From positions 1 to 5,140 of the forward strand of contig JASHRR010000219.1 in assembly GCA_030037185.1 (NCBI GenBank): 5,140 nt of DNA, in the 5' to 3' direction. Source of the stretch: Xanthobacteraceae bacterium. Lineage in GTDB: Bacteria > Pseudomonadota > Alphaproteobacteria > Rhizobiales > Xanthobacteraceae. A program made the translations under genes and the position numbers. Each line of letters begins with the position of its first letter. The stretch's first letter is position 1. The notes beneath the pieces were generated by a model that saw only the letters and a list, made by a program, of their open reading frames with translations, ran no database searches and was not told where the DNA came from. Positions 1 to 4,239 of this stretch are shown here, in pieces.

Positions 1-1
1 T

Positions 2-874
2 GACACTGTCACTATCGAGACGTCATCGTTATTTGCCCGGAGATCATTGACCAATCCGGGGTGGTACCGCCAAGCGCAATCCCGCAATACCAGCGCGACA
101 TATTTCGAGAGGTGAAGGATCGCGGGCCCTCTGGACACGTGCTCACTGGACCAATCGAGATCAGGGGGCGCGATGCCCGGTGACGTGCTCGAAGTGCGCA
201 TCCTTGAGGTCGAACTCGCGCTTGACTGGGGGGTGAACCGGCAGCGGCCCTATGCTGGAGTGCTGCCCGACGAATTCACCGCCCTCTGGACGCGGGTCAT
301 CCCGATCAATCGGCAAACTAAGACCGCTGAGGTAGGCCGCGGTGTTGTCGTGCCGGTCGACAAGCCATTCTTCGGTACTATGGGTGTTGCACCTGATGCC
401 ACGCTGGGCCGCATCAGCAGCGGTCCGCCCGGCATTCATACTGGCAACCTCGACAACAAGGACCTGATCGCCGGCACTACGCTGTACATGCCGGTCCATG
501 TCGCGGGCGCCTTGTTCTCGGTCGGCGATGCCCACGCGGCCCAGGGACACGGCGAGGTCGACATAACTGCGATCGAAACGGGGTTGCGGGGAAAATTTCA
601 ATTCATCGTGCGCAAGGATATGAGACTTCTGTGGCCGCGTGCTGAAACTCCCACGCATTGGGTCGTGATGGGCCTCAACCCGGACCTAGACGATGCGATG
701 AAGATCGCCGTGCGCGAAACTATCGATCTCATTACGAAGAGATTTCCTCATCTCACACGCGAGGAGGCCTATATGATTGCGAGCGTGGCCGTCGACTATC
801 ATGTCACACAAGCCGTGGACGGCACCAAAGGCATTCATGGAATGATTCCGAAAGCGATCTTTCGAGCGCAGTAG
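2..874 (+). pseudogene. Acetamidase/formamidase family protein (FmdA/AmdA), 5'-truncated by window edge and double-frameshifted
   Basis: Members of this family hydrolyse short amides such as formamide or acetamide to ammonia and the acid in the cytoplasm. The intact 3' part is open from an ATG at 173 to the TAG at 872-874 (233 codons). It carries family blocks FFGTMGVAP, a PPGIHTGNLDNKDL stretch, and GDAHAAQGHGEV followed by DITAIE, the most diagnostic metal/active-site region. The ATG at 173 is not the real start, because homologous sequence continues upstream. Frame 1 reads a stretch with CPEIIDQSGVVPPSAIPQ and, further on, GHVLTGPIEIRG (about 31-165). Frame 2 reads DTVTIET at 2-22. Joining them needs one shift near 29-36 and a compensating shift at the G run 164-168, where removing one G gives IEIRGAMPGDVLEV. 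The net frame is restored, so about 290 codons are in the window and roughly 20-40 N-terminal residues lie outside. Sequencing error in two places is the alternative to true decay. Family assignment is very sure; pseudogene status is moderately sure. Confidence 0.9.
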
Positions 875-1743: not shown

Positions 1744-1854
1744 GGGTCACCAACGGCTGTGCCGATAACATGAGCGACACGTCCGAAGTACCCCAGCTAA
1801 GCGCCCCCCTTTGTGCAACGCGCAAGTGGGCAGAGGTGGGCCAGGAAGAGACAT
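1744..1854 (+). repeat. Dispersed repeat copy A
   Basis: This is the first full copy of the repeat of about 100 bp. Positions 1744-1843 align with 3866-3964 with 12 substitutions and one 1-base indel (about 87% identity by hand count). Matching blocks include GGGTCAC, AACGGCTGTGCCGATAACAT, CACGTCCGAA, CCCAGCTAA and TTTGTGCAACGCGCAAGT. Its right part (GGCAGAGGTGGGCC to GAGACAT) matches copy B more closely. The left end has a small hairpin, CGGC-TGT-GCCG. It lies 350 bp upstream of the DUF1203 gene. Confidence 0.85.
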
Positions 1855-2192
1855 TGCCGAATCTGCAGCTACGCGCGATCGCGTGTTCGCCGCGGCATGT
1901 TGGCAGCACCGTTCTGATCAGACCCCCATCCTGGAAGATGAAAATACTTCGCCACCTTCTGGACGCACACGCGCACAGTCAAACCGCGGCTCGGCCTGTC
2001 CCAGCCGTATCTCCGCTTCGTGCCAGATGCGCTCCGCCTCCGTCCTCATCCGTTATCTCAAAAACCTCCGTCAGTTCTCTCGGGTCAAAGAACACCGAAA
2101 CGGCCGTGAAGGAAATGCGGCGGCCGGCAGATCGGCGGCAAGAAACGGAGTGTGCTCAACGAAACGCGGTCGTAGGTTCGTCGGGACACAAT
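1855..2192. other. No intact gene; possible BrnT-like remnant on the minus strand
   Basis: The forward frame is open from 1770 into the DUF1203 gene, but its translation before 2202 resembles no protein and crosses repeat A, so I exclude it from the gene. On the minus strand a frame bounded by stops (about 1979-2158) encodes ISFTAVSVFFDPRELTE at about 2072-2122. This resembles the N-terminal core of BrnT-type toxins (family pattern: HGVSF, then A, then VFxDPxxLT). No start, no preceding Lys-His segment and no BrnA antitoxin are seen, so at most it is a decayed piece. Confidence 0.3.
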
Positions 2193-2197
2193 GGAGG
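2193..2197 (+). promoter_or_regulatory. Ribosome binding site of the DUF1203 gene
   Basis: GGAGG stands 4 nt before the ATG at 2202 and 7 nt before the adjacent in-frame ATG at 2205. The 7-nt spacing favours the second ATG as the start. It also rules out the long upstream extension of the open frame back to 1770. Confidence 0.75.
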
Positions 2198-2204
2198 ACC
2201 GATG

Positions 2205-2672
2205 ATGAGCTTTCGTATCAGTGGCCTGCCGGCCGATCAGTTCGCCGATCTGTTTGCATTGTGCGACCAGGAGCTGGTGGCACGCGGTGCTATTCGCCGC
2301 GTCGCTGACGAGTGCACCCCTGGCTATCCGTGCCGGGTCAGCCTCGCGGACGCGCGGCCAGGCGACGAGCTGCTGCTCGTCAACTACGAGCATCACCCCG
2401 TCTCTTCTCCTTACCGCATGCGTTTTGCGATTTTCGTGCGCAAGGGCGAAGAGACCTACAGCGCGGTGGACGAGGTGCCCGAACAGTTGCGGCTGCGGAC
2501 GCTCGCGGTGCGCGCCTTCGACGCCGACGCTATGATGGTAGGCTTCGAGCTGGTCGCTGGCCGCGACCTGGAAGGCGCCATCGAGCGGCTGTTCGCGAAC
2601 CGCGCTGCCGATTATCTGCATGTCCATTTCGCCGCACCGGGCTGTTATGCCGCGAGGGTCGACCGGGCCTGA
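2205..2672 (+). CDS. DUF1203 domain-containing protein
   Basis: This 155-residue protein has the usual length for the DUF1203 family, whose biochemical role is unknown. The protein begins with FRISGLPADQF at residue 3. It continues through PGYPCRVSL (39-47), a PGDELLLVNYEHHPV segment (52-66) with SPYR after it, FAIFVR (74-79), and a C-terminal YLHVHFAAPGCYAARVDR (137-154) with paired histidines 139 and 141. It has no signal peptide or membrane segment, so it is probably cytosolic. The start at 2205 is set by the GGAGG at 2193-2197; ATG 2202 would add one Met. It ends with TGA directly against repeat B and is flanked upstream by repeat A, so it stands alone and not in an operon. G or C third positions dominate, and the gene looks intact. 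Family call is confident; function is unassigned. Confidence 0.9.
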   Translation: MSFRISGLPADQFADLFALCDQELVARGAIRRVADECTPGYPCRVSLADARPGDELLLVNYEHHPVSSPYRMRFAIFVRKGEETYSAVDEVPEQLRLRTLAVRAFDADAMMVGFELVAGRDLEGAIERLFANRAADYLHVHFAAPGCYAARVDRA

Positions 2673-2786
2673 GTCAGCCGCGAAAAACGGCTATGGCGGT
2701 TTTCGACCAGCACGTCCCCTGTACCTCAGATAGCGGTCGACTTTATGTCCCGCGCAACTTGGCAGAGGTGGGCCGCGAGGAGACAT
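2671..2786 (+). repeat. Dispersed repeat copy B, abutting the DUF1203 stop codon
   Basis: This copy is colinear with A and C. From AACGGCT to GGCAGAG is 75 nt here, 77 in A and 76 in C. Shared blocks with A are AACGGCT, CACGTCC, GTACC-CAG, CGCGCAA-T-GGCAGAGGTGGGCC and GAG-AGACAT. The left portion diverges and instead matches partial copy D (CGG then TTTCGACC). The first bases (CGAAAAAC, 2681-2688) can pair with GTTTTCG (2699-2705 region), forming a hairpin just after the DUF1203 stop. That hairpin might act as a weak terminator, although no T tract follows. Confidence 0.7.
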
Positions 2787-2892
2787 ATGCGGTGCAGCAA
2801 AAGAACCCTTGTAGTTCGAGCGCCCCGGCAAAGATGATCCGGGAAGCTCGTAGTGAGAAGGAGACCAGCGCTGCGGGCGCCCCAGCCCTCGA

Positions 2893-3687
2893 CTAGGCTA
2901 TCGAACGAACGACGCCTCCGTCGACGCGCAACGCGGCGCCGGTCGTTGCGGAGGCCTGTTCCGAGCAGGCATAGACCACCATGTTCGCGACCTCTTCGGT
3001 GGTTGCAAACCGATTGATCAGCGTTGTCGGTCGCATCGTCTTCAAGAAATGCTGCTCGGCCTGCTCTTGCGTGACGCCCTGCTCCTGCGCCGTTATCTTC
3101 ATCCAATTGGACAGGATCTCGGAGTTGGTCGGACCGGGAAGCACCGCATTGACGGTGACACCCGTTCCCCCAACGAGTTCGGCTAGTCCCCTCGAAACGC
3201 CGAGCACTGCGGCCTTGGTTACGCCATAGTCGATCATGTCCTTGGGAATGTTCAGCCCGGATTCACTGCTGATAAACACGACACGTCCCCAACTCCGTTC
3301 CATCATTTTCGGCACGTAGTGGCGTGCGGCACGAACGCCACTCATGACGTTGAGTTGGAATAGATCGAGCCATTCGCGATCGTCTTGATCGAAAAAGTTG
3401 TTCAGACGCGCCGTGCCGGCGTTGTTGACGAGGATGTCGGCGTCCGGTGCCTGCGCGAACAAGGCCGCGCAACCTTGCGGCGTCGCGACGTCGGCGGCGA
3501 CGCCGGCCAGGTCGGCCTCCGGCAGAAGCGCGCGCATCTCCCGAAGTGCTGTGGAGACCCTTTCTTCAGTCCGGCCGTTGACCACGACCGAAGCTCCTGT
3601 GCGCGCCAATCCTTCGGCGATCGCTCGGCCTATGCCTGCCGTCGATCCCGTTACGACCGCCTTACGGCCCTTAAGGTCGATATTCAT
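2893..3687 (-). CDS. SDR-family NAD(P)-dependent oxidoreductase
   Basis: This is a classical short-chain dehydrogenase/reductase of 264 residues, full length for the family. It has the Rossmann glycine motif TGSTAGIG (13-20), Asp66 in the adenine-pocket region, NNAG (88-91), and the catalytic tetrad Asn113, Ser141, Tyr154, Lys158 with the YxxxK spacing. LPGPTNSE (183-190) and a C-terminal VDGGV complete the fold. Arg39 after the second strand suggests NADP(H) preference (inference). The substrate is unknown; it resembles FabG-like 3-oxoacyl reductases in general form. I start it at ATG 3685-3687, where the SDR fold begins (MNIDLKGRKAVVTG). The frame stays open by chance back to an ATG at 4239, but that extension crosses the promoter and repeat C. 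The ribosome site is weak (AAAAGAAA about 6 nt upstream). The gene stands alone between repeats B and C, in opposite orientation to the DUF1203 gene. Intact and very likely functional. Confidence 0.95.
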   Translation of the reverse strand: MNIDLKGRKAVVTGSTAGIGRAIAEGLARTGASVVVNGRTEERVSTALREMRALLPEADLAGVAADVATPQGCAALFAQAPDADILVNNAGTARLNNFFDQDDREWLDLFQLNVMSGVRAARHYVPKMMERSWGRVVFISSESGLNIPKDMIDYGVTKAAVLGVSRGLAELVGGTGVTVNAVLPGPTNSEILSNWMKITAQEQGVTQEQAEQHFLKTMRPTTLINRFATTEEVANMVVYACSEQASATTGAALRVDGGVVRSIA

Positions 3688-3826
3688 AGTAATTTCTTTT
3701 ATTTTGTGGTTGCAATTTGCTTTCCCGGGGCTGAAAAGCGGGGGAAGCGGTCCTACGCCTTTGTGGCTTCCACTTCGGCCGCGCGCGCAAGGGTGTCCAC
3801 GAAGAACGGACCTTGCTGTGTCTCCA

Positions 3827-3854
3827 TACATAGACCAATTGGTCTTTAAATCAA
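3827..3854 (-). promoter_or_regulatory. SDR promoter with TetR-type palindromic operator
   Basis: On the minus strand, TTGATT (3854-3849) and TATGTA (3832-3827) are separated by 16 nt and form a plausible sigma-70 promoter pointing at the SDR gene, about 140 nt upstream of its ATG. Filling the spacer is the perfect 14-bp palindrome AGACCAATTGGTCT (3832-3845). This GACC-N4-GGTC layout is known for operators of TetR-family repressors such as NemR and RutR. Placement between -35 and -10 fits repression by steric block. No regulator gene is in the window. The palindrome is seen directly; the regulator class is inferred. Confidence 0.65.
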
Positions 3855-3865
3855 GTGACCGCTTT

Positions 3866-3964
3866 GGGTCACGAACGGCTGTGCCGATAACATTAGTGGC
3901 ACGTCCGAATAGCCCAGCTAACCGACTCACTTTGTGCAACGCGCAAGTCGGCAGAGATCGGCCA
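3866..3964 (+). repeat. Dispersed repeat copy C
   Basis: This copy is about 87% identical to A over its whole length (12 substitutions, one indel by hand count) and in the same orientation. Weaker similarity to A may continue to the GCATTGCCG at about 3975-3983. It starts 20 bp beyond the SDR operator, where a divergent regulator gene would be expected. On its other side lies the end of a truncated membrane-protein frame. No target-site duplication is evident at the edges. Confidence 0.85.
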
Positions 3965-4089
3965 TGTGTCATGAGCATTGCCGGTCTATACGGCGGTGCG
4001 TAACTGTACGAGAGATGAAGGAGGGCCCTCCGGGTTCGGCGATCAGGTGCTGATCCCAAGCTACCGCAAGCTGCCGTGGTCAAAAGCCG

Positions 4090-4239
4090 TGGTGTATTTA
4101 TCCCGAGATTAAGATCTGTCGGCGTAAGGTAATCAAAGGAATACCACGCCAAGCTCGCCGTAAGCGGCAAAGCCAACAAGACGCTAAACAACCAGCGATG
4201 ATTAAAGCAGCATACTAAGATATCCGACAAAATAGCCAT
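4090..4239 (-). pseudogene. Truncated membrane-protein fragment
   Basis: From ATG 4239, about 50 codons read like protein. They include a hydrophobic helix WLFSVLLALPLTASLAWY (about residues 16-33) followed by FDYLTPTDLNLGINTP. Beyond about 4090 the frame continues without a stop but loses protein character and runs into repeat C, so the gene appears cut off. Its ATG overlaps the last 25 nt of the small membrane-protein gene before it, in another frame, which suggests either translational coupling or one original gene broken by a frameshift. No ribosome site is visible. Family unrecognised. Confidence 0.35.

Follow-up and report, generated by a model that had tools for sequence, protein, structure and literature searches.

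Small non-autonomous elements such as REPs and MITEs depend for their movement on enzymes supplied in trans, and Bradyrhizobium and its relatives carry interspersed repeats that give rise to spurious small ORFs. The rhizobial RIMEs, Sm-repeats and ABC motifs are described as intergenic repeats in an excerpt of one article (PMC2573895), and all three are mentioned for S. meliloti in excerpts of that article and a second one (PMC2573895, PMC2245857). The Br-REPs of Bradyrhizobium are placed in 3'-UTRs in the excerpted part of PMC5082802, where consensus sequences of Br-REP1 and Br-REP2 are also printed.

We analysed a 5,140-nucleotide stretch of DNA, referred to here as the window, which contains three colinear copies (A, B and C) of a short repeat. 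Our preferred reading, which we consider fairly likely, is that these are old, independently inserted copies of a short interspersed intergenic repeat family of the REP/RIME/MITE-like kind. As with the REP, RIME and Br-REP families of rhizobia and Bradyrhizobium, the window repeats are short, apparently non-coding and intergenic. The position of copy B, just past a stop codon and between converging genes, is also reminiscent of the 3'-UTR location given for Br-REPs in the excerpt of PMC5082802. Strong palindromes in the window repeats are not borne out by folding, and the likeness to RIMEs is one of description. With up to three mismatches allowed, the window had no match to the consensus of Br-REP1 or to the first 22 nt of that of Br-REP2, as printed in that excerpt (PMC5082802).

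The resemblance to MITEs is of a similar kind. The window repeats are short and non-autonomous-looking and occur in several copies, with a left block whose ends (TGGG...CCCA) are imperfectly inverted. However, no target-site duplication was seen by eye at A or C, the true ends of which are undefined, no autonomous parent was seen, and terminal inverted repeats are not significant by folding. An earlier note on this DNA had offered three readings of the repeats: insertion-sequence remnants, a MITE-like family and recombination sites for cargo genes. The MITE-like family fits best among these, although the target-site duplications and mobile parent that would go with it were not seen.

Three repeat copies and two intact genes

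Self-BLAST of the window located all three copies on the plus strand. Copy A (1743 to approximately 1857) is the most complete and consists of a left block of about 53 nt (1743–1795) and a right block that begins at 1796. Its match to copy C (3865–3964) covers 101 nt (1743–1843 against 3865–3964) with 87.1% identity and 121 bits, in agreement with the identity of about 87% proposed earlier for this pair, and the longest exact run between the two is 20 nt. Copy B (approximately 2676–2790) is diverged. It matches copy A over 77 nt with 75.3% identity (1778–1854 against 2711–2786; 50.9 bits) and copy C over 35 nt (28.3 bits). Dinucleotide shuffling of the window (n = 100) gave a top same-strand off-diagonal score of 36.5 bits and a mean of 25.4 bits. 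The repeats A, B and C are real, with A-C and A-B similarity far above that of the shuffles.

Multiple alignment gave identities of 85% for A and C (92/108), 65% for A and B (84/129) and 60% for B and C (61/101), which bears out the greater divergence claimed for B. A profile built from the three copies matches copy A at 1736–1868, copy A itself being among the profile sources. Within each copy, the spacing of 77, 75 and 76 nt claimed for the AACGGCT and GGCAGAG blocks holds as a start-to-start distance (1752 and 1829 in A, 2686 and 2761 in B, 3874 and 3950 in C). Flanking stretches of 200 bases showed no similarity among the three copies at E ≤ 0.05.

A partial copy, D, had also been described as related to B. 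The B-D match is present (36 nt, 80.6% identity), and it places D at 1021–1062 on the plus strand. Its pairwise score of 31.9 bits, however, falls inside the range of the shuffles, and the score of D against the A/B/C profile (10.3 bits) was equalled by one of 200 shuffles; copy D is therefore borderline.

The left block of copy A (1743–1795) starts with TGGG and ends with CCCA as an imperfect palindrome, so that a palindrome in this block is suggested. When whole copies were folded, they were not significantly more stable than shuffles, either as DNA (z-scores of 0.72, -0.55 and -0.86 for the three copies) or as minus-strand RNA (1.20, -0.42 and -1.34). The left blocks of 52–53 nt folded slightly better than shuffles as minus-strand RNA (z-scores of -1.66 and -1.67), with 8/200 and 12/200 shuffles folding equally well; as DNA, they had no extra stability relative to shuffles (z-scores of 0.23 and -0.94). 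A conserved hairpin RNA was set aside, as the folding of whole copies is not significant and Rfam had nothing above cut-off in the window except the intron described below.

The repeat-gene-repeat-gene-repeat order reported previously is correct. An intact DUF1203 gene of 156 aa (2202–2672, plus strand; PF06718, E 7.6e-34) lies between A and B, and an intact SDR-family oxidoreductase gene of 264 aa (2893–3687, minus strand; PF13561, E 1.6e-44) lies between B and C. The repeat copies, of approximately 100–115 bp, are outside both genes. From repeat to gene, the distances are 344 nt (A) and 3 nt (B) for DUF1203, and 102 nt (B) and 177 nt (C) for the SDR gene. About 3 nt thus separate the stop codon of DUF1203 (2670–2672) from the start of copy B, which is placed between two genes that both end towards it. 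The closest homologues of the two predicted proteins are found among JGI metagenome proteins; both are 94% identical, and that of DUF1203 is of equal length. One named DUF1203 match (79%) points loosely to Alphaproteobacteria, as do the intron matches described below, and the named SDR matches include Betaproteobacteria. The DUF1203 and SDR genes probably do not belong to the repeat.

At the left of the window (1–874) is a formamidase/acetamidase-like gene, the C-terminal part of which is matched in the ORF 173–874 (Pfam PF03069, profile positions 205–372). By eye, the frame of its N-terminal part changes twice before position 200, and the gene therefore looks broken. The window is a gene-poor, decaying stretch.

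A group II intron remnant at the right end of copy C

An Rfam scan of the window gave one family above its cut-off, RF01999 (group II intron D1-D4), at 4017–4138 (43.3 bits; cut-off 36). Matches to mgtE and SMAD5-AS1 were far below cut-off, and RF00029, the 3' catalytic domain, was absent from the window at E ≤ 1. In BLAST searches, positions 3965–4087 matched a Methylosinus plasmid with 83.7% identity over 123 nt, while positions 3992–4094 matched introns on Paracoccus and Sinorhizobium (S. meliloti) plasmids with 81.6% and 76.9% identity, respectively, over 103–104 nt. The Paracoccus and S. meliloti introns sit just upstream of ltrA, and all three plasmid loci have RF01999 at 105–123 bits together with a 3' RF00029 domain. 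The window sequence matches the 5' part of these RF01999-type introns and, unlike the full plasmid introns, keeps this 5' part only, without a match to the 3' domain. Judged by these matches, the stretch that follows copy C (3964–4138, plus strand) is a clear 5' piece of an RF01999-type group II intron, which we regard as a neighbour of the repeat and not as the repeat itself.

The first base of the intron aligns at 3964–3966, and the A-C similarity stops at 3964. The A-B similarity runs approximately 10 nt past the point where the A-C similarity stops. As the 5' end of the intron falls where the A-C similarity ends, the right end of C is a truncation, and the intron would have entered a pre-existing copy of the repeat.

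Relatives of the repeat outside the window

Were the family common among alphaproteobacterial genome sequences, DNA searches might have turned it up; that those made here gave no relative counts against a dispersed family. Copy A had no match among plasmids at E ≤ 0.01. At E ≤ 10, copy C had a single 23-nt plasmid match (E 3) and copy B had six short ones (best E 0.09); the similarity of two Shinella plasmids to B (best E 0.09) extends over only about 26 nt. The repeat consensus had no plasmid match, and neither the region 860–2200 nor a translated query gave a plasmid relative that stood out. Searches of phages with the repeat returned three short matches, all at E 4, and a 21-nt match at E 0.396 was found in one of two genomes searched; none of 148 genomes of one phylum gave a match, an outcome that carries no weight. 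An exact-pattern scan of genomes picked six stretches (from Paenibacillus, Planctomycetota and a Deltaproteobacteria MAG), none of them from Alphaproteobacteria by title, and viral scans picked 16 stretches from three of eight scans and none from the other five; it should be noted that scans of this kind have little sensitivity for a family whose members differ as much as A and B do. A literature search did not find a description of the repeat, sequences being poorly searchable by words.

The A/B/C profile was also run on 29 loci. The best matches, at E 2.6e-5 over 43 nt, were those of L019 and L020 (Planctomycetota), followed by L016, L017 and lower ones. These best matches fall where the pattern scans had picked, and they are taken as selected chance matches. 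In L019 (4169–4211) and L020 (1863–1905), which are two Planctomycetota MAGs, it is the same weak 43-nt match, and it involves the right part of the profile.

Protein-level comparison was performed at E ≤ 10 with a profile that combined A, translated in its minus-strand frame, with pieces of C. This search gave three candidates, P0241 (E 4e-4), P0242 (E 1.3e-3) and P0243 (E 0.37, not significant alone), all three of which carry the left-block peptide of the [S/N]DVPLMLSAQP or VPLMLSAQP type, in the form SDVPLMLSAQPFVT or VPLMLSAQPLVTH. The sequences around the peptide otherwise differ by eye, and each of the three is known as a predicted protein only. Since the left-block peptide recurs in predicted ORFs of three further contigs, amid dissimilar sequence, the repeat family is probably dispersed, and its left 53 bp or so may form a separate unit. 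P0241, which has 69 aa and is encoded on a 540-base contig, has a match to the group II intron maturase family PF08388 at residues 13–47 (29.9 bits; cut-off 23), and the left-block peptide begins at residue 50, directly after the maturase domain.

Gene finders call spurious proteins over repeats of this type, and the three ORFs could be read in this way. The outcome of the protein search fits the spurious-ORF pattern of Bradyrhizobium-type repeats, short of proving membership. Spurious ORFs are also a route to relatives of a repeat, via protein databases, when DNA searches fail.

Origin of the repeats

In the interspersed-family reading that we favour, repeat copies of about 100–115 bp, apparently non-coding (A, B, C and perhaps D), would have inserted independently and in the same orientation into a decaying region, and the genes between them would be there by chance. 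Copy C would later have been invaded by the group II intron, of which the 5' part was left, and loss of the rest of the intron would have removed the right end of C. The sequence itself shows the repeats and how they diverge, the unrelated flanks, the junction with the intron, the intron's invasion of C and the loss of most of that intron, and the left-block peptide of the three outside ORFs. Independent insertion, mobility in trans, the copy number of the family and the order of these events are what we infer; no trans-acting mobilising enzyme was found in this analysis. If the family is dispersed, it would add another case to the short interspersed repeats of environmental bacteria and serve as a marker of past mobility. 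It would also urge caution, as a repeat-gene-repeat order in a short window is no proof of a cassette system.

Alternatively, the copies could be what is left of the ends of an insertion sequence after repeated insertion and loss of its transposase. Solitary pieces of the same kind, about 100 bp long, in a region that also holds a broken amidase gene and the remains of a group II intron would suit such a mobile-element graveyard, as would the imperfect palindrome from TGGG to CCCA in the left block of A. However, an insertion sequence has ends that are mutually inverted, while all the copies here point one way, and the copies were not found in the plasmid records searched. Furthermore, no transposase was matched in the window pieces searched: Pfam on 20 of the 80 listed stop-to-stop pieces of at least 40 aa (two of them shortened) and PHROGs on 10 stop-to-stop pieces gave only sub-threshold matches. 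We regard an origin as insertion-sequence remnants as unlikely.

Repeat and group II intron adjoin in two places: in the window, an intron begins where a full copy (C) ends, and the left-block peptide of P0241 comes directly behind a broken maturase frame. The left block of about 53 bp (TGGG...CCCA) might then be the part that moves or recombines in a non-autonomous element, so far undescribed, that goes together with group II introns, a proposal that we consider quite improbable.

As an alternative to an interspersed repeat, the copies could be decayed pieces of a duplicated protein gene. Copy A does lie within long open frames on both strands, and the A-B substitutions are unevenly spread over codon positions (9/21/15, n = 45), which leaves some doubt. 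Against this, the frames over A have no Pfam match, the A-C substitutions have no codon rhythm (4/5/7, n = 16) and are accompanied by 1-nt indels that break the frame, and the minus-strand frame in copy C contains stops and a shift. These stops and the shift make a conserved protein unlikely and a shared DNA repeat the simpler reading. We rejected a coding origin on the A-C comparison, and judge a duplicated gene to be a very improbable source of the repeats.

It is extremely improbable that the repeats are recombination sites of a cassette-like array with the intervening single genes as exchangeable cargo: each interval does hold one intact gene, but the DUF1203 and SDR genes are oppositely oriented, the repeat-to-gene gaps are uneven, recombination between A and C would have at best the 20 nt of exact identity, the flanks are dissimilar, the outer copies and not the middle one form the closest pair, and no RYYYAAC...GTTRRRY pair occurs 40–160 bases apart on either strand, with neither core inside a copy. 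The earlier suggestion that cargo could be exchanged by recombination is consequently not supported, given the lack of an attC pair, the unrelated flanks, the gene orientations and the short exact A-C identity. The window recalls integron gene cassettes in that repeats of about 100 bp alternate with single genes, but it differs from them in having neither attC cores nor cassette-like orientation or spacing. Integron cassettes were rejected because attC cores are absent, the attC-core sites in the window being single ones at 2154, 3349 and 4566. Tandem duplication of a repeat-gene unit was rejected because the outer copies are the closest and the flanks are unrelated.

In three of three plasmid neighbourhoods of the SDR gene, the neighbours are other genes and DUF1203 does not adjoin, which speaks neither for nor against exchange. 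Upstream of the SDR gene in the window, there is a perfect 14-bp palindrome, AGACCAATTGGTCT, at 3832–3845; no regulator gene was seen beside it, and it resembles a TetR-type operator.
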